From a virus, in IMG/VR virus record IMGVR_UViG_3300020215_000018, positions 1 to 44,945 of that record: a stretch of DNA of 44,945 bases. One strand, 5' to 3'. The stretch's first letter is position 1, and each line of letters begins with the position of its first letter. The position numbers and the translations under genes were made by a program. Positions 3,464-29,300 of this stretch are shown here, piece by piece. The notes beneath the pieces were generated by a model. The model was given only the letters and a program-made list of their open reading frames with translations, was not told where the DNA came from and searched no databases.

Positions 3464-3525
3464 GCATAGCGCTCATCTTCATCCTCGGCTTCTGGATTGG
3501 CCTATGCTTCGCTAGGCTCATTTGA
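3460..3525 (+). CDS. Tiny 21-residue single-pass membrane peptide
   Basis: A GTG at 3460 overlaps the TGA of the holin candidate (GTGA), the same coupling used throughout this genome. It encodes 21 residues: a nearly unbroken hydrophobic helix (IALIFILGFWIGLCFA) and a basic end RLI, then TGA. Chance could produce such a frame, but the overlap, hydrophobicity and position at the end of the lysis operon support translation. It could be a lysis regulator or an accessory pinholin-like peptide. Confidence 0.5.
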   Translation: MSIALIFILGFWIGLCFARLI

Positions 3526-3561
3526 TAAGCCTCGGCCGTCCCGGGCGGCGCGTGCCCAGTC

Positions 3562-3578
3562 GTCCGCAACTTGCGGAC
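3562..3578. promoter_or_regulatory. 17-bp perfect palindrome
   Basis: GTCCGCAACTTGCGGAC, with 8-bp arms around one central base, 36 bp after the last lysis gene. It could be a protein-binding operator. No U-tract follows, so it is a poor terminator. Confidence 0.5.
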
Positions 3579-3664
3579 ATCTCAAGGCGCCTGCACCGCG
3601 ACGGCCAAGGGCGGGTGGAGACGTCACCCGCAGCACGACGACGGAGACGGGGAGGAAGGGCCCC

Positions 3665-3689
3665 GCGCCGGGGAGGACCGCCCCGGCGC
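3665..3689. terminator. GC hairpin after lysis operon (possible terminator)
   Basis: Arms GCGCCGGGG and CCCCGGCGC form a perfect 9-bp stem with a 7-nt loop. There is no T-run on either side. It is the strongest hairpin downstream of the lysis genes, so it may end or stabilise that transcript. Confidence 0.4.
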
Positions 3690-3723
3690 CCGTCGGGCGT
3701 GCGATATGTCGATGGAGGGGCCT

Positions 3724-3758
3724 CCCGATCGACAGGTCGCGCGAACGTGTCGATCGGG
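3724..3758. repeat. Inverted repeat, 11-bp perfect arms
   Basis: CCCGATCGACA at 3724-3734 and TGTCGATCGGG at 3748-3758, with a 13-bp spacer. The related words TCGACAGGCG (3758-3767) and TATCGATCGC (3800-3809) lie nearby. It fits a dimeric DNA-binding protein site. Confidence 0.6.
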
Positions 3759-3785
3759 TCGACAGGCGCCCGTCGTGGTGCGGTT

Positions 3786-3838
3786 CTATCACACAACCTA
3801 TCGATCGCCTATCACACAGCCCCGATCTTGTGCGATAG
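3786..3838. repeat. Three CTATCrCACA boxes
   Basis: CTATCACACA occurs at 3786-3795 and again at 3809-3818 (23 bp apart), and as the inverted copy TGTGCGATAG at 3829-3838. Two direct and one inverted copy within 53 bp, in a stretch less GC-rich than its surroundings, look like a regulator or recombination-factor array. The binding protein is unknown. Confidence 0.5.
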
Positions 3839-3868
3839 AGCAAATCAAGGCGTGGTGCGGCTAACGCG

Positions 3869-3891
3869 AAACCCCCCGCCGGAGCAGGGGG
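3869..3891 (-). terminator. Intrinsic terminator, leftward
   Basis: Read on the minus strand, an 8-bp stem (CCCCCTGC / GCGGGGGG with one G-U pair) closes a TCCG loop of the stable UNCG class and is followed by TTTCGCG. The T-run is short. It lies about 210 nt downstream of the promoter at 4107-4136. Confidence 0.7.
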
Positions 3892-4100
3892 CACGGTCCA
3901 GGTAACTCCGGCAAGCCGGCCAACCGATTAACGCCTTGGGTCCTTGTCGTAGGCCACCGCGGCCTGGCTGGAGGGCACGAGGCCCGTAGCCCTGGTCAAC
4001 CGCTCGGGAGGCGATCCCCGAAGGCATATCTAGGAGCCACCTAGATCGCCCCGGCACGGAGGCCGGCTGGTTGCGCAAGGGGCCTCTCGACCCCGAGCGC
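3869..4100 (-). ncRNA. Candidate structured small RNA beside the attachment region
   Basis: A sigma70-like promoter (TTGACC, 18 bp, TATACT) reads left into a stretch of about 230 nt that ends at an intrinsic terminator. No convincing gene lies between: the only frame uses a TTG with no ribosome site and runs through the terminator. The predicted RNA folds strongly: an 8-bp helix pairs 4099-4092 with 4001-4008, enclosing a 5-bp hairpin (4066-4051) and a 7-bp helix (4050-4044 with 4016-4010) with two inner hairpins. Further hairpins follow at about 3992-3971 and 3965-3951, and CCGGC/GCCGG at about 3920-3909. I recognise no known RNA family. Confidence 0.55.
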
Positions 4101-4106
4101 TCGACC

Positions 4107-4136
4107 AGTATAGGCGAGCGGTGATCGCCGGGTCAA
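4107..4136 (-). promoter_or_regulatory. Leftward sigma70-like promoter
   Basis: On the minus strand TTGACC (4136-4131) and TATACT (4112-4107) are separated by 18 bp, near consensus for both boxes. The expected start is near 4100. It lies downstream of the integrase, so it drives the RNA candidate rather than the integrase. Confidence 0.7.
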
Positions 4137-4143
4137 GGCGATG

Positions 4144-4193
4144 TGTGCGAGTTAGCGCATGCACTAGTCACCGTACGGCTTCTAACTCGCACA
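4144..4193. other. Candidate attP: 50-bp dyad next to serine integrase
   Basis: Perfect 12-bp arms TGTGCGAGTTAG (4144-4155) and CTAACTCGCACA (4182-4193) flank 26 bp. The total of 50 bp matches the usual attP size of large serine integrases, which bind as dimers to such imperfect dyads. The centre is T4168/C4169; inner positions keep only partial symmetry (GCAC left, GTAC right), also usual for attP. It ends 14 bp from the integrase stop. A stem-loop terminator for the integrase is the alternative, but no U-tract follows. Confidence 0.55.
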
Positions 4194-4207
4194 TGCACGA
4201 GGACCCC

Positions 4208-5755
4208 CTACCGGCCGCCCAACGCTTTCCCCGCGCGGGTCCTAAGATCCGTCACCTCCAGGGTGAAGTCCTCGGGCCAATCGGGGTCGGCCGACGGCCG
4301 GAAGCACACGGTGGCCGTGTCGGTCCCGTCGATGCGCACGTGCCGCAGCACCACCGACAACACCATGTTCCGCTCGGCCGGGCTCATGGTGGGCCACGCC
4401 CCGGCGAGGTCCCGCGGCAGGGGCGGCGCGTCGGCCTCGGGCTCGGGCGCGACCAGACGCGCCGCCTCGGCGGACAACTCGGCGAAGCGGGCGCGGGCCT
4501 GGTCGTCCGTGATGGCGCCCCACTCGTGCTGCTTGCGCACCGCTTCCCGTTGCCGCTCGACGCGCGCCAGGGCCGCGGCGGGGTCGGCCTTCTTCCGGGC
4601 CTTCGGCTTGGCGGGCGCCTCCCCGCGGGTCGCCAGGGGGGCCAGGGCCTCCAGGATGCGCGGGGCCACGGCGAGGTCCATCCACCGCTCGCTGACGCTG
4701 GCCGGGCGGTCGCACCCCACCGGGCCGCCGTCCGCCCGCGTGGCGCAGATGATGCGCACCGTCGGGTCCCCGCGCTTGCGGTTGACCAGGATGCGGCTCA
4801 TGGAGCGCCCGCAGGATCCGCAGCGCACGAGCATCGGCCACATGGACACCTCGCGGCTGGCGATGGCCCGCGAGGGTACGCCCGCGTTGCCGTCGAGGAC
4901 GGCCTGGGCCGCCTCCCACGTCGCGCGGTCCACCAGCGCCGGCCAGGGGGCCGGGCCCTCCACCCACTCGTCGGGGCGCGTCGCCACGGCCACCTTGCGA
5001 CCGCCCCGGTTGACCCGGCGCGAACGCAACTGTCGCATCACCCCCATGTACGCCGGGTTGCGCAGGATGGTGTAGACCGTGTTGCGCCAGAGCGGCTTGC
5101 CGTCGCGGGACGTGCGCCCCTCCGCCGTGGCCGCCTTCATCGCGCCCAGCACGCTCCGCTTCGCCAGGAAGAGCTCGAACAGCCGGCGCACCGTCGCGGC
5201 CTCGTCCTCGTCCACCTCGAGCCGGCCCGGGTGCTTCGTGCCGTCGGGGTCGGTGCGCGCCTTGACGTAGCGGTAGCCGAAGGGCGCGTGCTTGCCGGCG
5301 AGGATGCGCCCCTGGGCGGCACGGAACCGGATGTTGTCGCGCACCCGGTCGGCCGTGTTCTCCGCCTCCATCTCCGCCACGATGATGAGGATGCGCAGCA
5401 CGAAGCGCCCCATGGTCGTCGTCGTGTCCAGGTCCTGCGTCAACGAGGACAGCCCCACGTCGTGGCGGGCGAAGTCCTGGAGCAGCTGCAGGTAGTGGGC
5501 GGCGTCGCGGGACAGGCGGTCGATCTTGTAGACCAGGACCACGTCCACGGCGCGCCGCTTCACCATGGCCTCCACGCGGGCCAGGCCGGGCCGGTCGGCC
5601 TTGCTGCCGCTCATCACGTCCACGACCTCTTCCACGAGGTCCCAGCCGCGCCGCGTGCAGTAGTCGCGGGCAAGGGCCTTCTGCGCGTCCAGGCTGCAGC
5701 CGTCGCGCTCTTGGAGACTGCTGCTCACTCTGGCGTAGAGGACGGCGCGGGTCAC
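4208..5755 (-). CDS. int: Large serine recombinase (phage integrase)
   Basis: 515 residues from a GTG at 5755. The resolvase N-terminal domain (about 1-150) starts VLYARVSSSLQ with the catalytic serine at S11, and has DVVLVYKIDRLSRD and LIIVAEMEAENTADRVRDN. A recombinase domain follows (about 165-290, with NTVYTILRNPAYMGVM). A zinc ribbon begins RCGSCGRSMSR near residue 310 and is followed by a coiled coil (about 395-445). This is the full large serine integrase layout, which inserts circular phage DNA by attP x attB exchange without host factors other than a directionality protein to reverse it. A candidate attP lies 14 bp past the stop. A serine integrase is less usual than a tyrosine one in P22-type phages. 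Confidence 0.95.
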   Translation of the reverse strand: MTRAVLYARVSSSLQERDGCSLDAQKALARDYCTRRGWDLVEEVVDVMSGSKADRPGLARVEAMVKRRAVDVVLVYKIDRLSRDAAHYLQLLQDFARHDVGLSSLTQDLDTTTTMGRFVLRILIIVAEMEAENTADRVRDNIRFRAAQGRILAGKHAPFGYRYVKARTDPDGTKHPGRLEVDEDEAATVRRLFELFLAKRSVLGAMKAATAEGRTSRDGKPLWRNTVYTILRNPAYMGVMRQLRSRRVNRGGRKVAVATRPDEWVEGPAPWPALVDRATWEAAQAVLDGNAGVPSRAIASREVSMWPMLVRCGSCGRSMSRILVNRKRGDPTVRIICATRADGGPVGCDRPASVSERWMDLAVAPRILEALAPLATRGEAPAKPKARKKADPAAALARVERQREAVRKQHEWGAITDDQARARFAELSAEAARLVAPEPEADAPPLPRDLAGAWPTMSPAERNMVLSVVLRHVRIDGTDTATVCFRPSADPDWPEDFTLEVTDLRTRAGKALGGR

Positions 5756-6490: not shown

Positions 6491-6982
6491 TTAGCGACCA
6501 TACCTGGCTGCCAGGTAACGACACTCCGTGTCCTTGGCTGTGTGAGGAATCACGTAATCCCACTTTGACCCCTGCTCCTCAAATGTGTAGCTCATTCCAG
6601 GAATGGAGTTTCCGTCAAATGTGTACGACGTAGATTTAAGTAGCTTGTATCTCTTCCTTTTGATGTCCATCATTACAAGCTCCATATCGTACGCCCAGTT
6701 ATTAATATCCGATTCACTGACCCCTATGTTATCAAACCCGCCGTACCGCTTTACAATCCTCTCTTTGTATCGGTCGCGGATTGACTGCCTTGTCCATGAC
6801 TCATCTGGGTTGAGTACAGACTTAATCCAATACTGATAGATTCCACCGCCCAGCGGCGTTATAGAAGACAGTTCTAAGAAGTGGTAGTGCGTTGATGTGC
6901 GCGAGAGTTCGGTTAGCGTGGCCTGGGCGGGAAGTTGGAGCGCGGCCACAAGGCAAAGCGCCAAACCAAGTCGTCGCGTCAT
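6491..6982 (-). CDS. Exported adhesin E-like protein (moron candidate)
   Basis: 163 residues. Signal peptide MTRRLGLALCLVAALQLPAQA. The mature part matches the surface-adhesin E-like family: HYHFLELSSITPLGGGIYQYWIK (residue for the 'structural marker' strand), a YDMELVMMDIKRKRYKLLKSTSY central strand, and WDYVIPHTAKDTECRYLA at the end. Such proteins are usually host surface or periplasmic proteins. The coding DNA from about 6500 to 6860 is markedly richer in A and T than anything else in the window, a sign of recent acquisition. It lies in the lysogeny operon, so it is probably a moron expressed from the prophage that changes the host surface. Confidence 0.75.
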   Translation of the reverse strand: MTRRLGLALCLVAALQLPAQATLTELSRTSTHYHFLELSSITPLGGGIYQYWIKSVLNPDESWTRQSIRDRYKERIVKRYGGFDNIGVSESDINNWAYDMELVMMDIKRKRYKLLKSTSYTFDGNSIPGMSYTFEEQGSKWDYVIPHTAKDTECRYLAARYGR

Positions 6983-7044: not shown

Positions 7045-7527
7045 TCACACCGAAAAAAAGGGGGCTTGCCCTGCGGCCTCGCGCATCCGCACGCCGGCTA
7101 CGCGCTCCGTCACCTGGCACTCGTGGGCCAGACGCTCGACCGTCCACCCCTCGCGTATGGCGTCGGCCAACGTGCGTTCGTGGACGAGATAACGCGACGC
7201 CCAAAGCAACGCCGCCCGCCAGCGGCGGCGGTTGCTGCGCTCGTAGTCGGCGTCGTGCCACCAGGGCGGGGCATCCGGAGCCAGGTGGCCGAAGTGGAGC
7301 AAGCCGAGCTGGATGCCGGCGGCCTCGCGCATCTCCGGCAGGTCGATCTTCCGGTGAAGCTGGAGGTCGTAGACGCGGCCAGCGCGAACGAGGTTCACGT
7401 CGTCAGCACCGCCGCAGGCCGGGGAAAGCCCCACGTCGTAGCGCGCCAGGATGTCCGCGAAGTCCCGTTCGATGGCGCGAAGGTCGCCATCCGCCCCGAA
7501 GAAGATGGGGTCAATCTTCCTGGACAC
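7045..7527 (-). CDS. Degenerate ImmA/IrrE-like protein beside repressor
   Basis: 160 residues from a GTG at 7527 that overlaps the end of the repressor gene by 17 nt. The C-terminal half (RRRWRAALLWASRYLVHE..LADAIREGWTVERLAHECQV) follows the pattern of ImmA/IrrE peptidases after the active site. In that family an HExxH motif binds zinc and cleaves the repressor encoded next door. Here the equivalent stretch reads LGLLHFGHLA, so HExxH is missing. It may be an inactive partner of the repressor or use a different ligand set. The family call is moderate and rests partly on gene order. Confidence 0.5.
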   Translation of the reverse strand: MSRKIDPIFFGADGDLRAIERDFADILARYDVGLSPACGGADDVNLVRAGRVYDLQLHRKIDLPEMREAAGIQLGLLHFGHLAPDAPPWWHDADYERSNRRRWRAALLWASRYLVHERTLADAIREGWTVERLAHECQVTERVAGVRMREAAGQAPFFSV

Positions 7528-8047
7528 GCCGCCGCTCCTCGATCTGCCGCTTCATCTCCAGCGCCTTGCGCGCGCCGTCCTCGACCGTTACCAGGAACCG
7601 GGCGCGTGCCTCCGGCGGGCGCGCCCAGAAGTCGGGGGTCATCAGGACCCCGTGGCTCATGTCCGCCTCGTGCATGAGGTCCAACACCTCGCGCTCCCAG
7701 TCGGTCATCCGCTCGACCAGGCGCCCGGGGAGGACGGTCACAGGGTGGGGTTGGCGAGGCGGCGGGGCGTCTTCGGGCAGCAATTCGCCCGCGGCCTCGA
7801 GGACTTCGGCGAGCGGGACACCTAGACCGCGCGCCAACTTCTCCAGTGTGGAGCGCTTGGGACGGTCTGGTGTCGTGCCGTTCTCAATGCCGTTGACCGT
7901 AGATGCGCCAGGACCGCCACGCCTACGGATTTCTGGAAGGCTAAGGTTTTTCTCGCGTCGAATCCTGGCGACGTAATCGCCAAGCCGTGTGGTTCCCAAG
8001 GCGTTCTCTGCGACTGCTGGCATTTCGCTTTCCCGTAAGACCAGCAT
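7511..8047 (-). CDS. HTH (XRE-type) prophage repressor
   Basis: 178 residues. The ATG at 8047 has a GGAAGGA site 9 nt upstream; longer frames would run back through the divergent gene. Residues 17-75 form an XRE helix-turn-helix (TRLGDYVARIRREKNLSLP, STVNGIENGTTP, LEKLARGLGVPLAEVLEAAG). The C-terminal 100 residues are helical and lack a LexA/CI-type autoprotease domain, so release from repression may depend on the ImmA-like partner. It faces the early promoter across the two palindromes at 8091-8127, which are its probable operators. Confidence 0.85.
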   Translation of the reverse strand: MLVLRESEMPAVAENALGTTRLGDYVARIRREKNLSLPEIRRRGGPGASTVNGIENGTTPDRPKRSTLEKLARGLGVPLAEVLEAAGELLPEDAPPPRQPHPVTVLPGRLVERMTDWEREVLDLMHEADMSHGVLMTPDFWARPPEARARFLVTVEDGARKALEMKRQIEERRRVQED

Positions 8048-8082
8048 AAGCGACCATCCTTCCGGTTTTCTGAAAAAAATGC

Positions 8083-8112
8083 TTGACGCCTTACGGGAAT
8101 CCGTAATATTCT
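8083..8112 (+). promoter_or_regulatory. Rightward early promoter
   Basis: TTGACG at 8083-8088 and TATTCT at 8107-8112, spacer 18 bp (alternatively TAATAT at 8104). It reads into the Cro-like gene and is overlapped by both palindromic operators, so a bound repressor would block polymerase. Confidence 0.75.
8091..8106. promoter_or_regulatory. Operator O1
   Basis: Perfect 16-bp palindrome TTACGGGAATCCGTAA lying between the -35 and -10 boxes of the early promoter. Same consensus TTACrGGAAyCyGTAA as the next site. Confidence 0.8.
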
Positions 8113-8127
8113 TACAGGAACCTGTAA
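8112..8127. promoter_or_regulatory. Operator O2
   Basis: Perfect 16-bp palindrome TTACAGGAACCTGTAA, centred 21 bp (two helical turns) from O1. It overlaps the expected transcription start and touches the ribosome site of the Cro-like gene. The spacing favours cooperative binding on one DNA face. Confidence 0.8.
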
Positions 8128-8140
8128 GGAGGTGATGCAA

Positions 8141-8383
8141 GTGAAGTTCCAACGGCAGGCGCTCACAAGCGCACGTGAGCAAGCGGGTCTTAGCAAGCCG
8201 AAGCTCGCACAGAAGGCCGGCGTTGGGGTTGCGACGGTGTACGACCTGGAGAACCCCAAGAGCAACATCGAGCCGCGACCGGGCAGCGTCGAGAAGATTG
8301 CAAAGGCGCTGGGGGTGGACTGGACGGTTTTTTACGCCCCCACCTTTCAGGAAACCGCAAGCGACACCCCCGCGGCCTCGTAG
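8141..8383 (+). CDS. Cro-like HTH regulator
   Basis: 80 residues. The GTG at 8141 is 8 nt after an AAGGAGGT site; the ATG at 8135 is only 2 nt from it, so GTG is the better start. The XRE fold is clear: LTSAREQAGLSKPKLAQKAG, then VGVATVYDLENPKS, then GSVEKIAKALGVDWTVFY. First gene of the rightward early operon and divergent from the repressor, the classic Cro position. It probably binds the same two palindromes. Confidence 0.85.
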   Translation: MKFQRQALTSAREQAGLSKPKLAQKAGVGVATVYDLENPKSNIEPRPGSVEKIAKALGVDWTVFYAPTFQETASDTPAAS

Positions 8384-8396
8384 AAAGGAGCCCCCG

Positions 8397-8540
8397 ATGC
8401 CCAAGAAGAAGGACGCCGACGAGCGGGACCCGGCGGAGCGGTTCCTGGAGGTGCTCCAGCAGGTGCTCGAGTCCCGCGACGAGCGTTACGCCCGCCTGGC
8501 CCGCGAGGCCGCCGAGGCCAAGAGGGAGGCGAGCGCGTGA
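8397..8540 (+). CDS. Small helical hypothetical protein
   Basis: 47 residues. An AAAGGAG site at 8384-8390 precedes the ATG. Highly charged coiled-coil-like helix: RDPAERFLEVLQQVLESRD, then RLAREAAEAKREASA. Its stop overlaps the GTG of the next gene (GTGA). No family recognised. Confidence 0.65.
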   Translation: MPKKKDADERDPAERFLEVLQQVLESRDERYARLAREAAEAKREASA

Positions 8541-17596: not shown

Positions 17597-17935
17597 ATGA
17601 CCGTCGAGAAGACCCTGACCAACACCACCGCCAGCCAGGCCAAGGACAACGTGTCCGACCTCAAGGTCTGGGGTGACGGCGACATGTTCCAGCTGCTCTG
17701 CAAGGCGTCGAGCCAGGCCGAGGGTTGGATGAAGTCGACCAAGGCGATGAACATCGAGAACGGGGGCGTGGTCGTTCAGGTGACCACCCAGCAGCGCAAC
17801 CCGGACGGCAGCTACAGCCTCGCGGAAGCCGTCACCTACGTCCCGAACGCGCGCGTGGTTACCTCGGCCACGGACGATGCCGGGAACGTCACCGGCCGGA
17901 AGATCGTGGGCTACGTCGACCTGATCGACCCGTAG
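17597..17935 (+). CDS. Hypothetical protein with conserved leader
   Basis: 112 residues; GAGAGGAG site before ATG 17597. Alpha/beta: NVSDLKVWGDGDMFQLLCKA (helix), WMKSTKAMNIENGGVVVQVT and LAEAVTYVPNARVV (strands). Probably compact and soluble. It is the first of three genes with hairpin leaders. No family recognised. Confidence 0.6.
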   Translation: MTVEKTLTNTTASQAKDNVSDLKVWGDGDMFQLLCKASSQAEGWMKSTKAMNIENGGVVVQVTTQQRNPDGSYSLAEAVTYVPNARVVTSATDDAGNVTGRKIVGYVDLIDP

Positions 17936-18046
17936 CCCGGTGCGTAGCCCGCGCCCCAGATAACCCCTCGACTCAAGGGCGCGTAGGCCGCGCCCCAACG
18001 ATCAGCAAATATGCGGGGCGCGCGCCCCGAACAGGAGGAGCAAGAC
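17936..18046 (+). promoter_or_regulatory. Intergenic repeats and leader element, copy 2
   Basis: Two near-identical 18-bp words, GCGTAGCCCGCGCCCCAG (17942-17959) and GCGTAGGCCGCGCCCCAA (17981-17998). AGATAACCCCTCG at 17958-17970 recurs exactly at 18393-18405. The leader TCAGCAAATATGCGGGGC ... GCCCCG hairpin spans 18002-18046 and ends in AGGAGGAGCAAGAC before ATG 18047, matching copy 1 in order and spacing. Confidence 0.65.
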
Positions 18047-18388
18047 ATGATCAGCATCAACGGCAACCGCGTGACCATCAACGGGAAGAGCTACAACCTG
18101 CCGCCGGGCAACGTGAGCATCATCAACGACACCATCCTGCTGAACGGGAAGCCCTGGAACGACGCCGACCCGGTGTCGGGCGTGGTCGAGATTCGGATCG
18201 AGGGCGATCCTCTGTCGGTCCAGACGGACGCCCCGGTGACGGTCAACGGCACCGTCAAGGGAAACGTTCTGGCGGGCGGCAGCGTGTCGTGCGGTGACGT
18301 GGCCGGCTCCGTGCAGGCCGGCGGGTCTGTCAGGGCGATGGGCGTTGGCGGCAGCATCACGGCCGGCGGGTCCGTGTCCCACCGCTAA
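18047..18388 (+). CDS. Small beta-helix (bactofilin-like) protein
   Basis: 113 residues; AGGAGGAG site. It opens MISINGNRVTINGKSYNLPP, then turns into short repeats of about 8-11 residues: VTVNGTVKGNVLAGGSVSCG, DVAGSVQAGGSVRAMG, VGGSITAGGSVSH. The spaced V-x-G/A-G pattern predicts a right-handed beta-solenoid, as in polymer-forming bactofilin-like proteins that also occur in phages. It could self-assemble or bind host cytoskeletal elements. Role unknown. Confidence 0.6.
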   Translation: MISINGNRVTINGKSYNLPPGNVSIINDTILLNGKPWNDADPVSGVVEIRIEGDPLSVQTDAPVTVNGTVKGNVLAGGSVSCGDVAGSVQAGGSVRAMGVGGSITAGGSVSHR

Positions 18389-18392
18389 GTCG

Positions 18393-18442
18393 AGATAACC
18401 CCTCGTACCACGAGTCCGCAGCGCGGACAGGAGAAGCAAGAG
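18393..18442 (+). promoter_or_regulatory. Leader element, copy 3 (variant)
   Basis: AGATAACCCCTCG (18393-18405) repeats 17958-17970 exactly. A perfect 6-bp hairpin GTCCGC-AGC-GCGGAC (18414-18428) comes next, then AGGAGAAGCAAGAG and ATG 18443. Same order (hairpin, AGGAG, start) and same 14-nt hairpin-to-start distance as copies 1 and 2, with a different stem sequence. Confidence 0.55.
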
Positions 18443-18685
18443 ATGCAGGAAGAGTACATCGTCTGGGTGCCGGTGCCGTGCCATATCCCACACGTCGTGA
18501 AGGCGACCGGCTACAAGGACGCCCGGCGCGTGATCGCCGAAGCCTTGGAAGCCGGGACGCTTTCAGAGGTGTCCCGCGAGCTGACCAGCCACATCAAGTA
18601 TGACGGCTGGGACGGCGACCCCGAGGAGTGGGATGTCGTGCGCCACGACGACTACTTCTCTGCCCCCGTGAAGGGTGGCGCGTGA
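18443..18685 (+). CDS. Hypothetical protein
   Basis: 80 residues. AGGAG before ATG 18443. Acidic, alpha/beta: YIVWVPVPCHIPHVVKATGY, DARRVIAEALEAGTL, then HIKYDGWDGDPEEWDVV. Third gene with a hairpin leader. No family recognised. Confidence 0.6.
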   Translation: MQEEYIVWVPVPCHIPHVVKATGYKDARRVIAEALEAGTLSEVSRELTSHIKYDGWDGDPEEWDVVRHDDYFSAPVKGGA

Positions 18686-19074
18686 TGACCCGCCACCCGA
18701 TGCTGATGTTCCAGCGGCTGCGCGCGGACAAGGGCGTCTTGATGCGCACCGTCGCCACGGCCTGCGGCGTCACGCCGGCCACGGTCTCCAAGTGGGACTG
18801 GGGGCGAGAGCGGATGCCGAACTCCGCCTTCGACATCGTGGTGGATCTGCTGGGGCTCGACACCGGCGAGCAGCTCGCGCTGAACACCGCCCGGATGTCG
18901 CCGTTGGTGACGCCGGAGCAGATCGCCGCCGACCGCGCGGAGACGCGGAGGGCGATCGACGAGGGGCGGATGTTCGTGAGCTACGCCCACTCCGGCGCGA
19001 GCAACTGCCCCTGCAACTCGTGCCGCTTCGAACGCGACGCCGCCAGCCCGGTGCGGCCCACGGAATCCACATAA
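18685..19074 (+). CDS. XRE-type HTH regulator
   Basis: 129 residues, ATG overlapping the previous TGA. Residues 8-60 form an HTH: FQRLRADKGVLMRTVATACG, VTPATVSKWDWGRERMP, AFDIVVDLLGL. The second half has a cysteine pair (NCPCNSCRFE). A third HTH protein besides repressor and Cro, near the end of the early operon, may help switch to late expression. Confidence 0.7.
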   Translation: MTRHPMLMFQRLRADKGVLMRTVATACGVTPATVSKWDWGRERMPNSAFDIVVDLLGLDTGEQLALNTARMSPLVTPEQIAADRAETRRAIDEGRMFVSYAHSGASNCPCNSCRFERDAASPVRPTEST

Positions 19075-19099
19075 TCGACGAAAACTTGAAGGAGGACCG

Positions 19100-19273
19100 A
19101 TGCACAAGAAGGGCTGCCCTTGCTGGGATTGCGGATACCCAGGGATGAAAGCGCGCTTTCCGCGCGACCCTAACACGCTGGTGCTGCTCGATGACGGCAC
19201 CTGGGTTCCCGTCGCCCCGGTCTACTACCCGAGCCTGGTCGAGCGGCTTTGTCGCCTGGTGCGCCGCACGTAG
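19100..19273 (+). CDS. Small cysteine-rich protein
   Basis: 57 residues. GAAGGAGGA site 7 nt before the ATG at 19100. N-terminus KKGCPCWDCGYPG has three cysteines in a CxCxxC pattern; the middle has TLVLLDDGTWVPVAPVYYP (beta), then a basic helix ending RLCRLVRRT. Probably binds one metal ion. No family recognised. Confidence 0.6.
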   Translation: MHKKGCPCWDCGYPGMKARFPRDPNTLVLLDDGTWVPVAPVYYPSLVERLCRLVRRT

Positions 19274-19334
19274 TCCAGGGTTTCGACGCTACCCGTAATC
19301 CGCTCCACGCAACAATCCTGGAGGAGCCCACGCC

Positions 19335-19838
19335 GTGAGCACGATGTCCCTGCCTCGCCTGGAGGTGTCCATGCAGCCCGCCCCCATCCCCCTCGACATC
19401 TTCACCGCCTACCTGGTCACCGGGGACCACTGGCGGGCGGGGCGCGCGCTCACGGCCCTGCGTCGCCACCAGGAGGGCTATGTGGGGCCGATGAACACCG
19501 TCAGCCGGGACGGGCAGCACGTGGCCGCCGTGAAGTTGCACCCCGACTTCGTGGATCACCTGGACCACGAGCAACACGTGACGCCGCGCTTGCGTCAGCG
19601 CTGGGATGCCGTCGAGTGGGCGATGCGCGAGGTGGAGGGCGAGGAGAAGCACGAGTGCATCGAGGCGTTGCGCTACTTCCTGACGCCCGACTACCGCCGC
19701 CGCAAGAGCGCGCGCGCCCAGGCCATCGCGTGGGATATCGCGGAGTCGACCCTGTGGAGCCGCCGGGACATCGGCGTTCGGCTCGTCTGGGAAGAGCTGC
19801 GGCTGGCCGGTAAGGCCGGTCTCTGGGCATCGATGTAG
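19335..19838 (+). CDS. Late regulator candidate
   Basis: 167 residues from GTG 19335 with GGAGGAG upstream. Residues 75-165 are helical with an HTH-like end: LRQRWDAVEWAMREVEGEEK, YFLTPDYRRRKSARAQAIAW, then IAESTLWSRRDIGVRLVWEE. This 'helical protein with basic HTH at the end of the early operon' matches the place and rough shape of phage late activators or antiterminators. No specific family is recognised, so the role is inferred from position. Confidence 0.5.
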   Translation: MSTMSLPRLEVSMQPAPIPLDIFTAYLVTGDHWRAGRALTALRRHQEGYVGPMNTVSRDGQHVAAVKLHPDFVDHLDHEQHVTPRLRQRWDAVEWAMREVEGEEKHECIEALRYFLTPDYRRRKSARAQAIAWDIAESTLWSRRDIGVRLVWEELRLAGKAGLWASM

Positions 19839-19887
19839 CTTGACTGGAGTCCGGTCGGAGTCAGATTGGAGCCAGGATGTAGCTTGA
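19832..19887. repeat. Two direct repeats upstream of late genes
   Basis: GATGTAGCTTGA at 19832-19843 and 19876-19887, 44 bp apart (close to four helical turns). The first overlaps the stop of the late-regulator candidate. They may be activator sites for a late promoter. Confidence 0.5.
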
Positions 19888-20006
19888 TCGTAGTCACGGT
19901 GGAGTCGATGACCGCTCCCAGGCCTTAATGTGGCAGGCATCGGTTCACGTCACCGCACACACGGCAGGGCCCTCGCTTCGGCGGGGGCTCGCTGCTTTGG
20001 AGGCCC
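19839..20006. other. Early/late intergenic interval
   Basis: 168 bp with no gene. It holds most of the repeat pair above, TTGACT at 19840-19845 as a possible -35, and a hairpin CCCTCGC-TTCG-GCGGGGG (19970-19987) with a TTCG loop that may end early transcripts or protect the late message. Confidence 0.5.
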
Positions 20007-20156
20007 ATGCTGCTCTTCGTCGAAGCGTTCACGAAGCCCGCGAGGGAAGATGCCGCCGTGCTGCGCGCCGTGGCCGACGGCTACCACGTGGTCTGCACGA
20101 ACGAGCATCTCACGCACACCGTGGTCACGATGCTGCCGGAGGGCGTGGAAGCGTGA
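20007..20156 (+). CDS. Small hypothetical protein, first late-side gene
   Basis: 49 residues. TTTGGAGG before ATG 20007. Sequence FVEAFTKPAREDAAVLRAVA, then GYHVVCTNEHLTHTVVTMLP. Its stop overlaps the next GTG. No family recognised. Confidence 0.55.
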   Translation: MLLFVEAFTKPAREDAAVLRAVADGYHVVCTNEHLTHTVVTMLPEGVEA

Positions 20157-20446
20157 GCACCATTCAGAGCGGCATCGAGTTCGAGGGCGGCGTGGCGGTG
20201 CCCTGGGTGTCCATCGAGGAGGACGAGGCCGACGAGAACGGCATGGTCGACGTGATACGCACCTCCACGGTGGAGGAATTGCGCGAGCTCGTGGAGCAGG
20301 GGCAGCGTGCTCTCGCCGCGGCGGAGGCCATCAACCGCTCGCCCGCCACCAAGTGGCCGCCAGTGAAGCTGCCTTCGCCGGAGCCGCGCCCGATCATGCA
20401 GACCGTGCATTACGGCGTTAGCACGTACCCGTGGGGGCAACTATGA
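20153..20446 (+). CDS. Hypothetical acidic protein
   Basis: 97 residues, GTG overlapping the previous stop; longer frames overlap upstream genes. Beta start (IEFEGGVAVPWVSIEEDEAD), then helix (VEELRELVEQGQRALAAAEA) and a Pro-rich end. No family recognised. Confidence 0.6.
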   Translation: MSTIQSGIEFEGGVAVPWVSIEEDEADENGMVDVIRTSTVEELRELVEQGQRALAAAEAINRSPATKWPPVKLPSPEPRPIMQTVHYGVSTYPWGQL

Positions 20447-20646
20447 GCGCCCGCGCGGTCAGCGCCTACGAGGCCGACGTGAAGCAGCACGCGAGCCGCC
20501 TGCAGCGCATCGGCCTGCAGCTTCGCCTGGACGGCAAGGACCTCGTGATGCGCGGCCCCGCCTCCATCTGCAGCGACGACACCCGCGCCTGGGTCTCCGA
20601 GCACCGCGAGGTCATCGTCGGCCTGCTCGAGCGAGGGGAGTTGTAG
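20443..20646 (+). CDS. TubC-docking-like small protein
   Basis: 67 residues, ATGA overlap. RLQRIGLQLRLDGKDLVMRG, then WVSEHREVIVGLLERGE matches the short alpha-beta-beta-alpha pattern of TubC N-terminal docking-like domains ('GxxLxLDGxxLxxxGP ... xLxxHxxxLLxLL'), often found as stand-alone phage proteins. Role unknown. Confidence 0.6.
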   Translation: MSARAVSAYEADVKQHASRLQRIGLQLRLDGKDLVMRGPASICSDDTRAWVSEHREVIVGLLERGEL

Positions 20647-20649
20647 GGT

Positions 20650-21171
20650 GTGGCGAACTGGCAGCGCATCCGCGAAGCGTACGCGGCCGGCAAGGGCACC
20701 TATGCCCAGCTGGCTCGCAAGTACAATGTCAATCTCTCGACCCTGCAAAAGCGCGCCAATCGCGAAGGTTGGACCAGCGACTTGCAACGGGTATGCAACG
20801 AGGTTGCAACCGGGCTTCCTCACCGCATTGCCGATTCCCTGCTGGGCGAAGCGGAGCGACGAGCGCGGCTCCAACTCGCCGATGTGGACCGGGCCCGCGG
20901 GTTCCTGGCTGCTTCTACTCCCGACGGCCCGGCCGAAATCGGGCACTGGGTCCGCGCGGCCCGCGGCGTGGCCGACCTCGAGCGCCTGGCCCTCAACATC
21001 CCGCCCCCGGCCCACGAGCGCCGCGAGCCCGAGCCGCCCATCATTCCCGGGCAGGGTAGCGTGGAGACTCCCCCCTCGCCCGTCGCACCTGCCACGCCCG
21101 AGCCGCCTCCCCAGCGAGAGCCGCGCGATCCGAAAGAGTCCTTGCGCCTCTATCGGGAAGGGCTGGGGTAA
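20650..21171 (+). CDS. terS: Terminase small subunit
   Basis: 173 residues from GTG 20650. The N-terminus WQRIREAYAAGKGTYAQLARKY, then NLSTLQKRANREGW is the helix-turn-helix of phage small terminases, which bind the packaging start site. Residues 45-110 are helical (oligomerisation); the rest is Pro-rich and ends ESLRLYREGLG. One small gene separates it from the large terminase. A pac site would usually lie in or near this gene. Confidence 0.78.
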   Translation: MANWQRIREAYAAGKGTYAQLARKYNVNLSTLQKRANREGWTSDLQRVCNEVATGLPHRIADSLLGEAERRARLQLADVDRARGFLAASTPDGPAEIGHWVRAARGVADLERLALNIPPPAHERREPEPPIIPGQGSVETPPSPVAPATPEPPPQREPRDPKESLRLYREGLG

Positions 21172-21174
21172 CGC

Positions 21175-21489
21175 ATGAGCGCGCATCTGACGACCTGGAT
21201 GTCCGGGTGGAGAGGGTCCCTCGCGGACGCCCAGACGACGTGCGAACTGCTGGCCTCTACGTTGGAGCGTGCGCCGGCAGAAGCCGGGCGCGTGGTGCTC
21301 CGGTTCCCGTGGCGGCCGTCCGAACATCGCGACCTACGGCGGTTCTACGATACCTTCGTGCGCGCCGGGTGGTGGCCGACCCTGTGGGAACACGATGACG
21401 CCCGCTGCGAGCTGACCGTCACGGCGGCCAGGAAGGGTGATCGCGCGTCCTTGATTGCCGCGTGGACCGGCCAAGAGGCCTCGACATGA
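21175..21489 (+). CDS. Hypothetical protein between terminase genes
   Basis: 104 residues. Sequence LADAQTTCELLASTLERAPA, RVVLRFPWRPSEHRDLRRFY, RAGWWPTLWEHDDARCELTV: an alpha/beta protein. It overlaps the large terminase start (ATGA). No family recognised; may assist packaging. Confidence 0.55.
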   Translation: MSAHLTTWMSGWRGSLADAQTTCELLASTLERAPAEAGRVVLRFPWRPSEHRDLRRFYDTFVRAGWWPTLWEHDDARCELTVTAARKGDRASLIAAWTGQEAST

Positions 21490-23105
21490 GCGCCGTGCCC
21501 GATCTCCGCGTCATCTGGACGCCGCCCAACCTCTTCGGGGAGATGGAGCGCCGTCGCCGCAATCTCGTCCGCTGCAACGCCGACCCGGAGCTGCAGGCCA
21601 TCGCCAACGAGGCGTGCGCGGCCGACCGCGTGCTCTGGCTGCAGGACTGGGTGTGGACCTACGACCCGCGCCAGCCCGATGCCGTGATGCCCTTCCAACC
21701 CTTCCCGCGTCAGGTGGAGTACCTGGCGTGGCGCGAGGCCCGCAAGGTGGAGCGCAAGCGCGGCGTGGTCGAGAAGAGTCGCGACATGGGCGTGACCTGG
21801 CTCAACGTGGCCGACCAGGTCCACGACTGGCTCTTCCACGACGGGCACGCGGGCGGCTTCGGCTCGCGCAAGGCCGACCTCGTGGACAACGGGGACGACC
21901 CGAAGAGCATCTTCGCGAAGGTGCGCTTCGTGGTCCTCTGGCTGCCCGCGTGGATGCGCCCCAAGGGGTTCGACCCGCGGCGGCACGCCACGCACATGCG
22001 CCTCGTCAACCCGGCGAACGGCAACACGCTCATCGGGGAGGCCGGCGATGACATCGGCCGCGGCGGGCGTACCCGAGTGTTCGACCTCGACGAGGCCGCC
22101 CACGTCGAGCGGCCCCTGTCGGTCGAGGCCGCCCTGTCGGCCAACGCGGACATCATCATCGAGACGAGCACGCCCAAGGGCGGCGGCAACCCCTTCGCCA
22201 AGCGTGCCCGCGGCGGCAAGGTGGCCGTGTTCACGTTCCACTGGCGCGACGACCCGCGCAAGGATGACGCCTGGTACGCGGAGCAGTGCGCGACCCTGGA
22301 CCCGACCATCGTGGCCCAGGAAATCGACATCGACTACGACGCCAGCGTGACCGGCCTCGTCATCCCGATGGGCCTCGTGCGCCCGTCCATCGGCCGCGCG
22401 CCCTACCAGGACGAGCCCGCCGCCATCGTCATCGGCGTGGACGTGGCCGAAGAGGGCCGCGACAAGAGCAGCCACGTGGTGCGCGAGGGGCGCAACGTCT
22501 CCGACCTCGCGGAGTGGCACGGCGCGGACCCGGTGCAGAGCACGAACATCCTCGTGGCGCTGGGCCTGCGCGTCGAGAAGCGCCTGGGCCAAGGGCACAC
22601 GCTCTACTTCGCGGTGGATAAGATCGGCATCGGGTCGGGCGTCGTGGCGGGCCTGCGTGCCTACGTGGCGAAGCGGCAGGCCGACGAACCCGACTGGCAC
22701 CCCTGGGCCGTGCTCGCGGTCGCGGCTAGCGAGACGGCGCCCGAAGTGTCCCCGCCGCACCCCGCTTGTCACCGCCTCAAGGACTGGCTGTGGTGGCAGG
22801 CGCGCGAGTGGTTCCGCGTCGAGTCGCCCAGCCTGCCCGCCGGCGACCTCGGCGAGCAGATGGCCCGCGAGCTGGCCTCGCCGACCTACGACCTCAACAG
22901 CGCCGGCAAGGTCGAGGTCGAGAGCAAGAAGGACCTGGCGAAGCGCGGCATCCCCTCGCCGAACCTCGCCGACGCGCTCGTGCACACCTTCAAGGTGAAG
23001 GCGCAGAAGCCGCCGGCCAAGAGCGAGATGGAGTTGCTGCGCGAGAAGCAGCGGGAGCGCGAGCGCGGTAGCCGCGGCGGCTACGGGTTGAGGTTGAGCC
23101 GATGA
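21486..23105 (+). CDS. terL: Terminase large subunit
   Basis: 539 residues from ATG 21486. ATPase motifs: VVEKSRDMGVTW (Walker A-like, about 94-105), VFDLDEAAHVE (Walker B with catalytic glutamate, about 198-208), then IIIETSTPKG (motif III). Nuclease part: IVIGVDVAEEGRDKSS gives the first acidic residue, FAVDKIGIGSGV the second, PNLADALVHTF the third. It pumps DNA into the prohead through the portal and cuts the concatemer. Length is normal. Confidence 0.93.
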   Translation: MSAVPDLRVIWTPPNLFGEMERRRRNLVRCNADPELQAIANEACAADRVLWLQDWVWTYDPRQPDAVMPFQPFPRQVEYLAWREARKVERKRGVVEKSRDMGVTWLNVADQVHDWLFHDGHAGGFGSRKADLVDNGDDPKSIFAKVRFVVLWLPAWMRPKGFDPRRHATHMRLVNPANGNTLIGEAGDDIGRGGRTRVFDLDEAAHVERPLSVEAALSANADIIIETSTPKGGGNPFAKRARGGKVAVFTFHWRDDPRKDDAWYAEQCATLDPTIVAQEIDIDYDASVTGLVIPMGLVRPSIGRAPYQDEPAAIVIGVDVAEEGRDKSSHVVREGRNVSDLAEWHGADPVQSTNILVALGLRVEKRLGQGHTLYFAVDKIGIGSGVVAGLRAYVAKRQADEPDWHPWAVLAVAASETAPEVSPPHPACHRLKDWLWWQAREWFRVESPSLPAGDLGEQMARELASPTYDLNSAGKVEVESKKDLAKRGIPSPNLADALVHTFKVKAQKPPAKSEMELLREKQRERERGSRGGYGLRLSR

Positions 23106-23350
23106 GCGCGTACGCGATGCTCCGCTCGCTGGGGTTCACGCCTCACCAGGCGGAAGCGATGACGCGCACCGCTGGCCTCTGGGACGAGCAGTGTATGGCC
23201 GACTGGGCCAGGGAGCAGGCGGCCGCCATCGTCGAGGAGTGCCGCCAACAGATGGACGAGGACAACCGGGCCGCGCTAGAGATGCACGAGCGGCTGCGCG
23301 CCAAGGCTGTGTTCCGAGCGAAGGCGCGGCGCGGAGGGTTGACCGGATGA
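23102..23350 (+). CDS. Hypothetical helical protein
   Basis: 82 residues, ATG overlapping the terminase stop. All helical: LRSLGFTPHQAEAMTRTAGL, then WAREQAAAIVEECRQQMDED. The stop overlaps the portal start. No family recognised. Confidence 0.6.
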   Translation: MSAYAMLRSLGFTPHQAEAMTRTAGLWDEQCMADWAREQAAAIVEECRQQMDEDNRAALEMHERLRAKAVFRAKARRGGLTG

Positions 23351-25677
23351 GCGCCCCGACGACCGACCTCCTCCGCGACTACGGCCTGTCCCGCGACCCC
23401 AAGGCGCCCAAGGCCGTGGGCAGCGACGACGACCGCGCCATCGTGGAGCGCGTGCAGGGTCGCCTCAAGGAGGCCCGCGTGGCCGACGAGCGCTACCGCA
23501 AGCGCTCCCTCGAAGGCCTCAAGTACTACGATGACGAGCAATGGGACCCCGACGCCAAGAAGGATGTCGAGGAGCGCGAGCAGGAAGCCATCGTCATCAA
23601 CATGGTCAAGAGCGCGGTCCGCGTGGTCGTGGGCCTGATGCTCGGCCACCCGATGGACTGGCTGGCGAAGCCGATCGGGAAGAACGACGACGGCGTGGCC
23701 GACGTGGCGACCGCCGCCCTCAAGTACGTGGCCGAGGCCAACCTGGCCGAATCGCTCTACAAGCGCGTTTACCACTTCGGCCTCTGCTACGGCGTCGCCT
23801 GGACGCGCACCGGCCGGCGCGTGCGCACCAAGGACCCGCGCCGCGAGCCCGCGCAGATGCGTTTCGTGGACGCGCGCCAGGTGCGCCCCGACCCGGAGAG
23901 CGTGGAGCCCGACGGCGCGGATATGCGCTGGCTCGTGTGGTCCCGGCGCGTCTCGCTCGAGGACGTGAAGCGCAACCCCGCCTGGAAGAAGAAGCTCGCC
24001 GACATCGCGACCCAGGCCGGCGTCTCCGACCCCACGGTGAGCGAGGAGGGCGACAAGGGCAACCGCAACCAGGGCCTCGTCGACCTCACGCCGCCCCAGT
24101 CGATGTGGGATCGCCTGGAGGACTGGAACTACGTCGACAAGGACGTCAGCGGCGACACCACGGTGAAGCGCGTGGTCATCCACGAAATGTGGGAGATCGT
24201 CGACGAAACGGCCTGGCTCTACGAGGGCAAGGACGGCCACCCCGCCGAGTTCGACGGCCCCGAGACCCCGGAGGGCGCGGCGCTGCTCCAGCGCCTCGAC
24301 GCCGCGGGGCAGCTGCGCCGCTACTACGAGGACGAGGTGCCGCGCGTCTACCGGCGCGTGGTCTGCGGCCCCTACCTGCTCGAAAGCGAGCGCACCGACG
24401 ACGAGTTGATCCCGTGGGTGCCGTTCTACTACGAGCGGGACCGCCACGGCGACCCGCGCGCCTTCGTCGCCACGCTCTTCGGCCTCCAGAACGACCTCAA
24501 CTACCGCGCCAGCAAGGCCATCTGGGAGATGAGCGGCCAGCCGATGCGCGTGAGCCCGGAGGTCGTGGCGCGCATGGGCCTGAACAACAGCAGCGCGGCG
24601 GAGCTCGCCCGCGACCCCGGGGCGGTGTGGATTGCCATGCCCGGCGAGGTCGAGTACCTGCAGCGCCAGAACACGGCGACCGACAACGCCGCGATGATGG
24701 AGCAGCGCGAGCGCCAGATCAAGAGCACCAGCGGCGCGAACGATGACCTGCAGGGCACGAACACGCGGGGTGATTCGGGCATCGCGCGCCAGCTCACGAT
24801 GCAGCAGGGCGCCACGATGCAGCGGGACAGCGAGGCGAACCTACGCATGTTCCACAAGTTGCTCGGGATGCAGATGCTGCAACTGCTCCAGCGCCTGCAC
24901 CCCGACGAGTGGACATTCCGCATCACCGACGAGATGGGCGACGACCGCTTCTTCACGGCCAACGCGGTGACGTTCGACCCCGTGACCGGGATGCAGCGCA
25001 AACTCAACGACATGAACGGCGTGCGCTTCGAGGTCACGCTGGACTCGATGCCGGCGACGCCCACGCTGCGCGACCGCGCGGCGGAGGTGTTCGCGCAGAT
25101 GGCGGCGGCCGAGCCCGACCCCATCAAGCGGGCGGTGCTGCAGCGCATCCAGATCGAGGCCGCCAACCTGCCCGGCAAGGGCAAGGCGCTCAAGGCGCTG
25201 GACGAGGCGGAGAAGATGCGGCAGCAGACGCCGCCCCCGCCGCCTCCCCAGAAGACCGTGCGCGACCAGCTCTCCATCGCCTACAAGGACGTGGAGCCGC
25301 AGTATCGCCCGGCGGTGTGGCAGGAGTTCGGCATCCAGGTCGACCCGCAATACGCCGGCACGCCGCCCACCCCGGAGGCGCCCGCCCAGGCCGAGCAGCC
25401 GCCTAGCCTGACGCCCGACGCGGCGATGAAGGCCCAGGTGGACCTCGCCAAGCACGAGCGCACGCTGGCCCACCAGGCCGAGCAGGCCGACCGCGACCGC
25501 TCGCACAAGGTCGACCTGCTCCACGTGCAGCACGGGCTAGGCCTCGAGCAGGCGGAGCACCAGGCCGGCCTCGGCGCGATGGCCGCCGCCCAGAAGCACG
25601 CGCACGGGCTCGCGCAGACCGAGCACGCGGCCAAGGTGGCGCCCAAGCCCGCGCCGCCCAAGGGAGGGAAGAAGTGA
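23347..25677 (+). CDS. Portal protein, P22-like
   Basis: 776 residues from ATG 23347, coupled to the previous stop; longer frames overlap it. N-terminal part: YDDEQWDPDAKK, VINMVKSAVRVVVGLMLGHP; middle: FGLCYGVAWTRTGRR, ILPAM-like VPFYYERDRHGDPRAFVATL, LQNDLNYRASKAIWEMSGQP. The C-terminal 80 residues form a long charged helix (AMKAQVDLAKHERTLAHQAE, VDLLHVQHGLGLEQAEHQAG), like the barrel of P22 gp1. P22 gp1 has 725 residues, so the size fits. It is the DNA channel and connector docking site. Confidence 0.88.
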   Translation: MSAPTTDLLRDYGLSRDPKAPKAVGSDDDRAIVERVQGRLKEARVADERYRKRSLEGLKYYDDEQWDPDAKKDVEEREQEAIVINMVKSAVRVVVGLMLGHPMDWLAKPIGKNDDGVADVATAALKYVAEANLAESLYKRVYHFGLCYGVAWTRTGRRVRTKDPRREPAQMRFVDARQVRPDPESVEPDGADMRWLVWSRRVSLEDVKRNPAWKKKLADIATQAGVSDPTVSEEGDKGNRNQGLVDLTPPQSMWDRLEDWNYVDKDVSGDTTVKRVVIHEMWEIVDETAWLYEGKDGHPAEFDGPETPEGAALLQRLDAAGQLRRYYEDEVPRVYRRVVCGPYLLESERTDDELIPWVPFYYERDRHGDPRAFVATLFGLQNDLNYRASKAIWEMSGQPMRVSPEVVARMGLNNSSAAELARDPGAVWIAMPGEVEYLQRQNTATDNAAMMEQRERQIKSTSGANDDLQGTNTRGDSGIARQLTMQQGATMQRDSEANLRMFHKLLGMQMLQLLQRLHPDEWTFRITDEMGDDRFFTANAVTFDPVTGMQRKLNDMNGVRFEVTLDSMPATPTLRDRAAEVFAQMAAAEPDPIKRAVLQRIQIEAANLPGKGKALKALDEAEKMRQQTPPPPPPQKTVRDQLSIAYKDVEPQYRPAVWQEFGIQVDPQYAGTPPTPEAPAQAEQPPSLTPDAAMKAQVDLAKHERTLAHQAEQADRDRSHKVDLLHVQHGLGLEQAEHQAGLGAMAAAQKHAHGLAQTEHAAKVAPKPAPPKGGKK

Positions 25678-25943
25678 GCGACCCGAAGCAGAGGGCCATC
25701 GAGGCGATCGACGCCGCATTGGCCGCGCTCAACAAGTTGCCCCGCGAGATGGTGCCGGTGTTCACGGTGGAGGTGGATCGGTTCGATCCGCACTTCATCG
25801 CCATCCGCATCGGCCAGGAAGGGCAGCGAATCGCCAACCGCTACACGCTGGCCGGCGTGATGCTGGATCTTGTGGACGAGGCACGCGCCAACAGTGCCGG
25901 GCACTTCGCCACGAAGCGCTACGAGGTGGGAGGTCAGCCGTGA
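25674..25943 (+). CDS. Hypothetical protein after portal
   Basis: 89 residues, GTG overlapping the portal stop (GTGA). RAIEAIDAALAALNKLP (helix), VPVFTVEVDRFDPHFIAIRI (strands), GVMLDLVDEARANS (helix). No family recognised. Confidence 0.6.
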   Translation: MSDPKQRAIEAIDAALAALNKLPREMVPVFTVEVDRFDPHFIAIRIGQEGQRIANRYTLAGVMLDLVDEARANSAGHFATKRYEVGGQP

Positions 25944-26218
25944 CCACCGCCACCGAAGCGCCCGAAGAGGGCGCCAACCTCTACGCGGACAGCCTGGCGA
26001 TGCTCGCCAACGCCATCGCGGAGGTCGGCATCCTCGCGATGCACATGACCCAGGCCGCCGCGTGCGCCCCGGAGAGCGACGAGATGATCGCCCACCACCG
26101 CGCCGCCGCGGTCCACGCCAAGGCGGCCGCCAAGTACATCGCGGGCGTACACGGGGCCCTGACGGACTTCGTGAGCGCCTACCAGCAACCCCGCATCGTT
26201 ACCCCGCATCAGCGGTAG
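25940..26218 (+). CDS. Hypothetical helical protein
   Basis: 92 residues, GTG overlapping the previous stop. NLYADSLAMLANAIAEVGIL and VHAKAAAKYIAGVHGALTDF: helical hairpin with several histidines and methionines. No family recognised. Confidence 0.6.
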   Translation: MTTATEAPEEGANLYADSLAMLANAIAEVGILAMHMTQAAACAPESDEMIAHHRAAAVHAKAAAKYIAGVHGALTDFVSAYQQPRIVTPHQR

Positions 26219-26230
26219 GAGGAGGAACCC

Positions 26231-27019
26231 ATGCCAGCAGGCAACGAAGTCGTCTTGGTCAACAGCACCGGCACGGAGTTGACCGCCGCCACCGGCTTGA
26301 TGGTGCGCGGTGCCGCGGCCGATGGCGCAGCCAAGGCCGGTAACCCGGTGCTCGTCGCTGGGCAAGATGGCACCAACGCCCAGTCGATCCTCACCGACAC
26401 GACCGGCGCCCAGGTGGCGGTCGGCGCCGCGGCGTCGGGCGCGGCCAAGGTCGGCGCCCCCGTCCTCTGCGGCGGCCAGGACGGCACCAACGCCGTCACC
26501 AACCTGGTGGACAGCAGCGGCCGGCAGGTCGTAGTCGGTGGTGCCGCCGACGGTGCGGCCGTGGCCGGGAACCCGGTCCTCGTGGGTGGCACCGACGGCA
26601 CCAACGCTCAGAGCTTCGCCGCCACCACGGGCGGTCAGCAGGTCGTGACCATCCCGGGCACCTGGGCGGTCACGCACTCGCCCGCGGTGAACACGCAGGC
26701 CACGATCTCCCAGGCTGCCGGCGGAGGCACGGTCAAGAACGTCTGCACGAGCATCATCTGTTCGCTGTGCTCGGACGGCGCGCCGACCCCGGAGCTTATC
26801 AAGTTCCACCTGCGCGACGGCGCGACGGGCGCCGGCACCATCCTACAGACCATCGTGCTCTCGCTGGTCGCCACGTCCGGCGACTCCGCGACCTTCGCGG
26901 CCACCGGGCTGAACCTGGTGGGCACGGCGAACACCGCGATGACCCTGGAGTCGGACAGCGCCCCGGGCGCCAACGTCTACGCGGCCGTCGCGATGAGCGG
27001 ATATACGCTGCCGTCGTAA
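26231..27019 (+). CDS. Repeat-containing structural protein (decoration candidate)
   Basis: 262 residues; AGGAGGAG site before the ATG. Residues 24-137 are three tandem 38-residue repeats with the core GAAxxGAAxxGxPVLxGGxDGTNA. The rest (140-262) is a beta-sandwich-like domain (VTHSPAVNTQATISQAAGGG, LQTIVLSLVATSGDS) ending in YAAVAMSGYTLPS. Proteins with this DGTN repeat occur as phage virion surface proteins. It sits before the scaffold and capsid genes, so a capsid decoration or head-fibre role is likely. Confidence 0.65.
   Translation: MPAGNEVVLVNSTGTELTAATGLMVRGAAADGAAKAGNPVLVAGQDGTNAQSILTDTTGAQVAVGAAASGAAKVGAPVLCGGQDGTNAVTNLVDSSGRQVVVGGAADGAAVAGNPVLVGGTDGTNAQSFAATTGGQQVVTIPGTWAVTHSPAVNTQATISQAAGGGTVKNVCTSIICSLCSDGAPTPELIKFHLRDGATGAGTILQTIVLSLVATSGDSATFAATGLNLVGTANTAMTLESDSAPGANVYAAVAMSGYTLPS
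26300..26641 (+). repeat. Three tandem 114-bp coding repeats
   Basis: Encodes the three 38-residue units. The copies differ by many synonymous and some amino-acid changes, so they are old, but GGCACCAACGC recurs in each at the same place. Confidence 0.7.
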
Positions 27020-27046
27020 CCTCTTCGCCTCCCCAACCCCTTCACG

Positions 27047-27080
27047 CCGCCCCGGGCTCGCCAGCCGGGGCGGTTGCTCT
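27047..27080 (+). terminator. Hairpin between repeat protein and scaffold
   Basis: Perfect 9-bp stem CCGCCCCGG (27047-27055) / CCGGGGCGG (27065-27073), followed by TTGCTCTT. It lies in a 179-bp gap that holds a second hairpin (CCCGGG-CTCA-CCCGGG near 27117-27135) and no gene. It may attenuate transcription before the scaffold and capsid. Confidence 0.55.
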
Positions 27081-27198
27081 TCGGCGACTCTCGGCCGGCC
27101 GTCCGCCCCAACGGCCCCCGGGCTCACCCCGGGTTAACGGGTGTGGTTCGTGCGCCCGCCACGCAGAACGGGCCAAACGCAAGGAGGAAGCCAACCCC

Positions 27199-28113: not shown

Positions 28114-28134
28114 TCCGCCCCTGGCCTCCGACGG

Positions 28135-28163: not shown

Positions 28164-28176
28164 TAGGAGGTTCCCC

Positions 28177-29286: not shown

Positions 29287-29300
29287 GAAGGAGGACCCAG

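Follow-up and report, generated by a model that had tools for sequence, protein, structure and literature searches.

The noncoding DNA beside the integrase gene of a GC-rich temperate tailed phage contains, on its leftward strand, a near-consensus promoter match followed by a terminator-like hairpin. We tentatively favour the reading that these two signals delimit a short (about 230 nt) autonomous noncoding phage transcript, which would run from about position 4100 to the hairpin at 3892-3871. The promoter match, the hairpin, the lack of a coding signal and the gene order are visible in the DNA itself, and the signals for a short transcript are better than chance; from them we infer transcription, the two ends of the RNA, its production in lysogens and any regulatory action. 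A sequence-only reading of the same DNA had proposed a complete unit for a new structured RNA. The noncoding unit next to the attachment site is backed by sequence signals, whereas the new compact structured RNA, as drawn, is not supported. At best, the stretch adds another unproven, orphan member to the phage small RNAs.

Gene setting and signals of the candidate transcript

The window analysed is the virus record IMGVR_UViG_3300020215_000018 (44,945 bases, 70% GC). Genes for the terminase, portal, major head protein and an internal virion protein read rightward, with an endolysin at 2577-2960, and a CI-like HTH repressor (ORF 7511-8404) is encoded among the leftward genes. The last late gene ends at 3463 and the integrase stop lies at 4208; the 744 noncoding bases that separate them hold the studied stretch, which sits between the late/lysis genes and the attP-integrase region. 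The features referred to below are as follows.

4208-5755, (-) strand: large serine integrase (PHROG 95, E 1e-95; Pfam Resolvase, Recombinase and zinc-ribbon domains)
4144-4193, no strand: attP candidate of 50 bp, with 12-bp perfect inverted arms and a 26-bp spacer
4107-4136, (-) strand: sigma-70-like promoter TTGACC-18-TATACT, predicted start at about 4100
4092-4108, (-) strand: 5' arm of an inverted repeat, CTGGTCGAGCGCTCGGG, overlapping the -10 box and the start site
3869-4100, (-) strand: predicted noncoding transcript of about 230 nt, with promoter and terminator-like hairpin on one strand and no codon periodicity
4073-4100, (-) strand: 5' stem-loop GCGC..GGGGUCGAGAGGCCCC..GCGC, pair probability 1.0 in the 4100-3869 RNA
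3992-4008, (-) strand: 3' arm of the inverted repeat, CCCGAGCGGTTGACCAG, pairing with 4108-4092
3871-3892, (-) strand: terminator-like hairpin of 9 bp with a UCCG loop, then UUU

Serine-integrase attP sites are 45-50 bp long, with inverted repeats around a spacer of about 20 bp, and lie beside int (PMC5311408); since its size and layout agree, the candidate at 4144-4193 matches this description.

The 744-bp stretch holds many further short repeats. At 3698-3758 there are dense palindromes with TGTCGATCGGG and CCCGATCGACA (3724-3734 and 3748-3758; 93% inverted arms), which are possible binding sites of a phage protein. The sequence CTATCRCACA occurs three times in the window 3786-3838, directly at 3786 and 3809 and inverted at 3838-3826, on the late-gene side of the proposed terminator, and is iteron- or operator-like. 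Elsewhere in the window, two neighbouring tail-region genes at 779-1767 encode similar secreted-type proteins (NFQRGPASSTQAGI.. and NFTLRDDAASATQPGV..), by eye a tandem duplication, and an AT-richer gene at 6491-6982, among the GC-rich leftward cluster and without a Pfam match, is possibly a recent acquisition.

The leftward near-consensus promoter that had been claimed was indeed found at 4136-4107, and no other site on either strand of the whole contig reaches 10 of 12 consensus matches. When 9 of 12 matches were accepted, just two more places were obtained, 6729, inside an AT-rich gene, and 8083, which lies between cI and cro and is the second-best intergenic site. Since the same scan also picks the cI/cro promoter, it is informative in this phage. 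The site at 8083 is overlapped by two palindromic copies (8091 and 8112; window 8091-8127) of the operator TTACRGGAAYCYGTAA, upstream of the cro-like gene at 8132-8383, and the matches to this operator are far above chance expectation. In shuffled versions of the 744-bp intergenic stretch, a 10/12 site appeared in 0.6% of cases (P of about 0.006 per shuffled stretch).

The stretch is noncoding, as the earlier reading held when it found no credible gene there. Its GC content by codon position is flat (0.72/0.69/0.69, as compared to maxima of 0.95-0.99 in the neighbouring genes), and so is that of the longest frame, the 77-aa ORF 4078-3845 (0.68/0.68/0.69), for which the Pfam search gave no match. 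A coding frame was ruled out on the basis of this lack of codon periodicity and of the Pfam result.

The hairpin at 3892-3871 is made of the strands GCCCCCUGC-UCCG-GCGGGGGGU followed by UU (UUU when the last stem base is included). It lies about 215 bp downstream of the promoter in the same orientation, and its pair probability in the 4100-3869 RNA is 0.91. In a relaxed genome-wide scan it was the lone hairpin followed by TTT outside genes; a stricter terminator scan (5 T in 8) rejected it, and its U-tract is short. Of the UNCG-loop terminator that had been described, the 9-bp hairpin with its UCCG loop stands. The hairpin may also serve as the end of the integrase/lysogeny operon, which is read in the same direction, and because its sense is shared by the proposed RNA and this operon, the hairpin by itself is no proof of a separate unit.

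It is the combination of the sole 10/12 promoter with the sole terminator-like hairpin outside genes that makes a short leftward transcript plausible. A promoter and a terminator of its own in noncoding DNA are what a phage small-RNA gene should have, and the sequence provides both, with a weak terminator U-tract. On the other side, by our own estimate, once both signals are taken to lie in one 744-bp noncoding stretch, the chance that they are suitably arranged is about 1/5. According to the preferred reading, a sigma-70-type promoter just inside attP would start the RNA at about 4100 and the hairpin at 3892-3871 would stop it. Integration at attP would place the transcript at the prophage end opposite int, reading inward from its own promoter, so that the RNA could be made in lysogens.

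Predicted folding and search for relatives

The compact multi-helix fold of the sequence-only reading, with its 8-bp closing helix, was not recovered in the RNA that the promoter would produce. The 4100-3869 RNA has a predicted folding energy of -121.5 kcal/mol with a z-score of -1.64, and 14 of 200 shuffled sequences were equal or better (z of -1.43 in an independent run). According to these predictions, the fold is ordinary for GC-rich DNA and only slightly better than that of shuffled sequences; a stability above what the composition leads one to expect was not found. The closing helix itself (4099-4092 with 4008-4001) has a pair probability of about 0 in RNA starting at 4100, and imposing it costs 5.7 kcal/mol in the first 104 nt or 11.5 kcal/mol in the whole 232 nt.

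The pentamers CAACC (4073-4069) and GGUUG (4001-3997), which had been put forward as partners in a pseudoknot, do occur as described. The closing helix and the pseudoknot cannot both form completely, because both use G4001. In the 105-nt fold, AACC pairs with GGUU and the closing helix is absent; this pairing is therefore not a pseudoknot. Probably, the RNA has a stable stem-loop at its 5' end and the terminator hairpin at its 3' end, with a loosely defined part between them. A hairpin at the 5' end and a terminator hairpin at the 3' end are usual in bacterial small RNAs.

If active at all, the RNA would most likely be an ordinary base-pairing regulator. Among the 38 phage gene starts that were searched for base-pairing targets, nothing was significant after correction, and the best site in nominal terms, which precedes the gene at 373, had a z-score of -2.84 among 38 tests.

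No Rfam family was matched in the window at the gathering threshold; at E<=10, region 3500-4300 gave just two weak chance matches, both outside the stretch, and ARAGORN found nothing. These results confirm that the RNA is not a tmRNA, 6S RNA, SRP RNA or RNase P RNA, to none of which the earlier reading could match it. A retron msr-msd and a TnpB omega RNA were rejected since the partner genes, for a reverse transcriptase or TnpB, are absent (PF00078 and PF07282 had no match in the contig). An attC-like integron site was likewise rejected, visual inspection showing a misfit in the R box sequences.

Relatives were sought with blastn or exact patterns, by which a diverged homologue could be missed. 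The blastn searches against phages and plasmids returned only chance matches of 30-80 bases, and IMG/VR contained no exact match to 21- and 27-base words drawn from the beginning, the middle and the end of the RNA. A pattern of the closing helix with a free interior matched three times, in each case in unrelated DNA that appears to be coding and lacks the remaining structure. No close relative of the integrase was present in IMG/VR, GTDB contigs, phages or plasmids, and hence no syntenic homologue was available in these collections. In the phylum to which the single weak integrase match belongs, 301 genomes yielded two short matches, which proved on inspection to be due to chance, and 46 terminase-related phage records contained nothing past short words. 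The portal search recovered the identical sibling contig alone, IMGVR_UViG_3300021061_000070 (11,886 bases, 100% identity to window 17915-29800), which ends before the studied stretch. The nearest other terminase found in IMG/VR has 51% identity, and the phage is therefore isolated in that collection.

The short U-tract, the possible role of the hairpin as operon end and the target search without a significant site count against a small RNA, and so do the lack of a relative in the collections searched and the non-significant fold of the 4100-3869 RNA. The last two are also among the reasons to consider that the stretch is ordinary GC-rich intergenic DNA, in which the terminator of the leftward lysogeny operon happens to lie near a chance promoter-like sequence and chance structure. 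The near-background fold of the whole transcript, the empty searches of Rfam, phages, plasmids, IMG/VR (exact patterns) and the 301 sampled genomes, and the abundance of other short repeats in the 744 bp are all consistent with this explanation. It does not easily account for a promoter match so rare in shuffled stretches and unique in the contig, nor for the 17-nt inverted repeat described below, as good in just 1.5% of shuffles. We judge it unlikely, yet it is the strongest of the alternatives to the short autonomous transcript.

The 17-nt inverted repeat and a possible read-through RNA

The 8 bp proposed as a closing helix belong to a longer, 17-nt inverted repeat, of which they form the inner half; the rest had been overlooked. 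Sixteen of the 17 positions pair (15 Watson-Crick and one G-U), with one central G-G mismatch; an equally good repeat occurs in 1.5% of shuffled regions, and the genome has four such places in total. As the outer arm extends into the -10 box, no RNA made from the promoter at 4136 can contain the whole helix, and an RNA started at 4100 loses half of the repeat. The isolated domain 4108-3992 has a z-score of -3.92; none of 400 shuffles was as stable, and among genome windows of equal length it ranks at about the first percentile. This value, however, refers to an RNA other than the one that the promoter would make.

The helix depends on where the RNA begins. In RNAs ending at 3869, the probability of the full helix was 0.48-0.67 when they started at 4240, 4207, 4140 or 4125, fell to 0.02-0.03 when they started at 4112 or 4108, and was 0 from 4104 or 4100. 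Because the helix is favoured only with an upstream start, any function that it has as RNA more likely belongs to the int read-through transcript than to the small RNA. This raises the possibility that the stretch is a 3' regulatory element of the int mRNA that works like lambda sib. Leftward int transcripts on circular DNA would cross attP, form the domain closed by 17 bp and stop at 3871. The int mRNA would be destabilised once the helix is processed, and integration, by splitting attP, would part the element from int. The order int, attP, long helix and terminator on one strand (int stop at 4208, attP candidate at 4144-4193, helix at 4108-3992, all in the int mRNA sense) is the one expected, and the read-through RNA 4207-3869 has a z-score of -3.44. 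Part of this value comes from attP, which forms a hairpin of its own. Moreover, windows as low as the domain recur at about 1% along the genome, the helix carries its central mismatch, and no homologue of it was found in the collections searched. We rank this explanation next and regard it, too, as unlikely. Should the read-through helix prove to be functional, it would point to a serine integrase controlled in the manner of sib, and of such control we know of no established example, our search not having been exhaustive.

The repeat might instead act as DNA, as two 17-bp candidate protein-binding sites through which looping would repress the promoter at 4136. The two sites are exactly 100 bp apart and identical at 15 of 17 bases; the upstream one spans about -8 to +9 of the promoter and holds the perfect palindrome CGAGCGCTCG, and no further copy within 2 mismatches occurs in the contig. 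No regulator is known for them, and the evident repressor operators at 8091 and 8112 differ in sequence; both points count against this explanation, which we regard as improbable. Least probable of all, we think, is that two RNAs operate, one being int read-through RNA on circular DNA, whose sib-like 17-bp-closed domain would control int in a serine-integrase phage, and the other the 4100 RNA, which lacks the outer arm and would refold for a role in the lysogen.

Comparison with known phage RNAs

If transcribed, the short RNA from 4100 would add an orphan to the phage small RNAs, placed at the integration end of a temperate phage, from where it could report or affect lysogeny. Known phage small RNAs include lambda OOP (77 nt), lambda aQ (220 nt) and P22 sar (68/69 nt) (PMC12197685). 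Like these, the candidate would be a short noncoding phage transcript with its own promoter, here a predicted one, and lambda aQ is of similar length. OOP, aQ and sar are antisense to known phage mRNAs and have been shown experimentally, whereas the present RNA lies clear of all genes, and no target is known for it.

The sib element of lambda lies downstream of int and retroregulates it, lowering int expression (PMC5300877). Like sib, the stretch follows int on the far side of the att site and offers a helix and a terminator in the int mRNA sense. It differs in the promoter between attP and the helix and in the integrase, which is of the serine and not of the tyrosine type, and processing of its helix is hypothetical. 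A parallel for expression is svsR, a prophage sRNA expressed in lysogens (PMC12803456), as the candidate RNA would likewise be made from the prophage. However, svsR, for which relatives are known, is located at the 3' end of cI, while the candidate lies at the att end, with none found.
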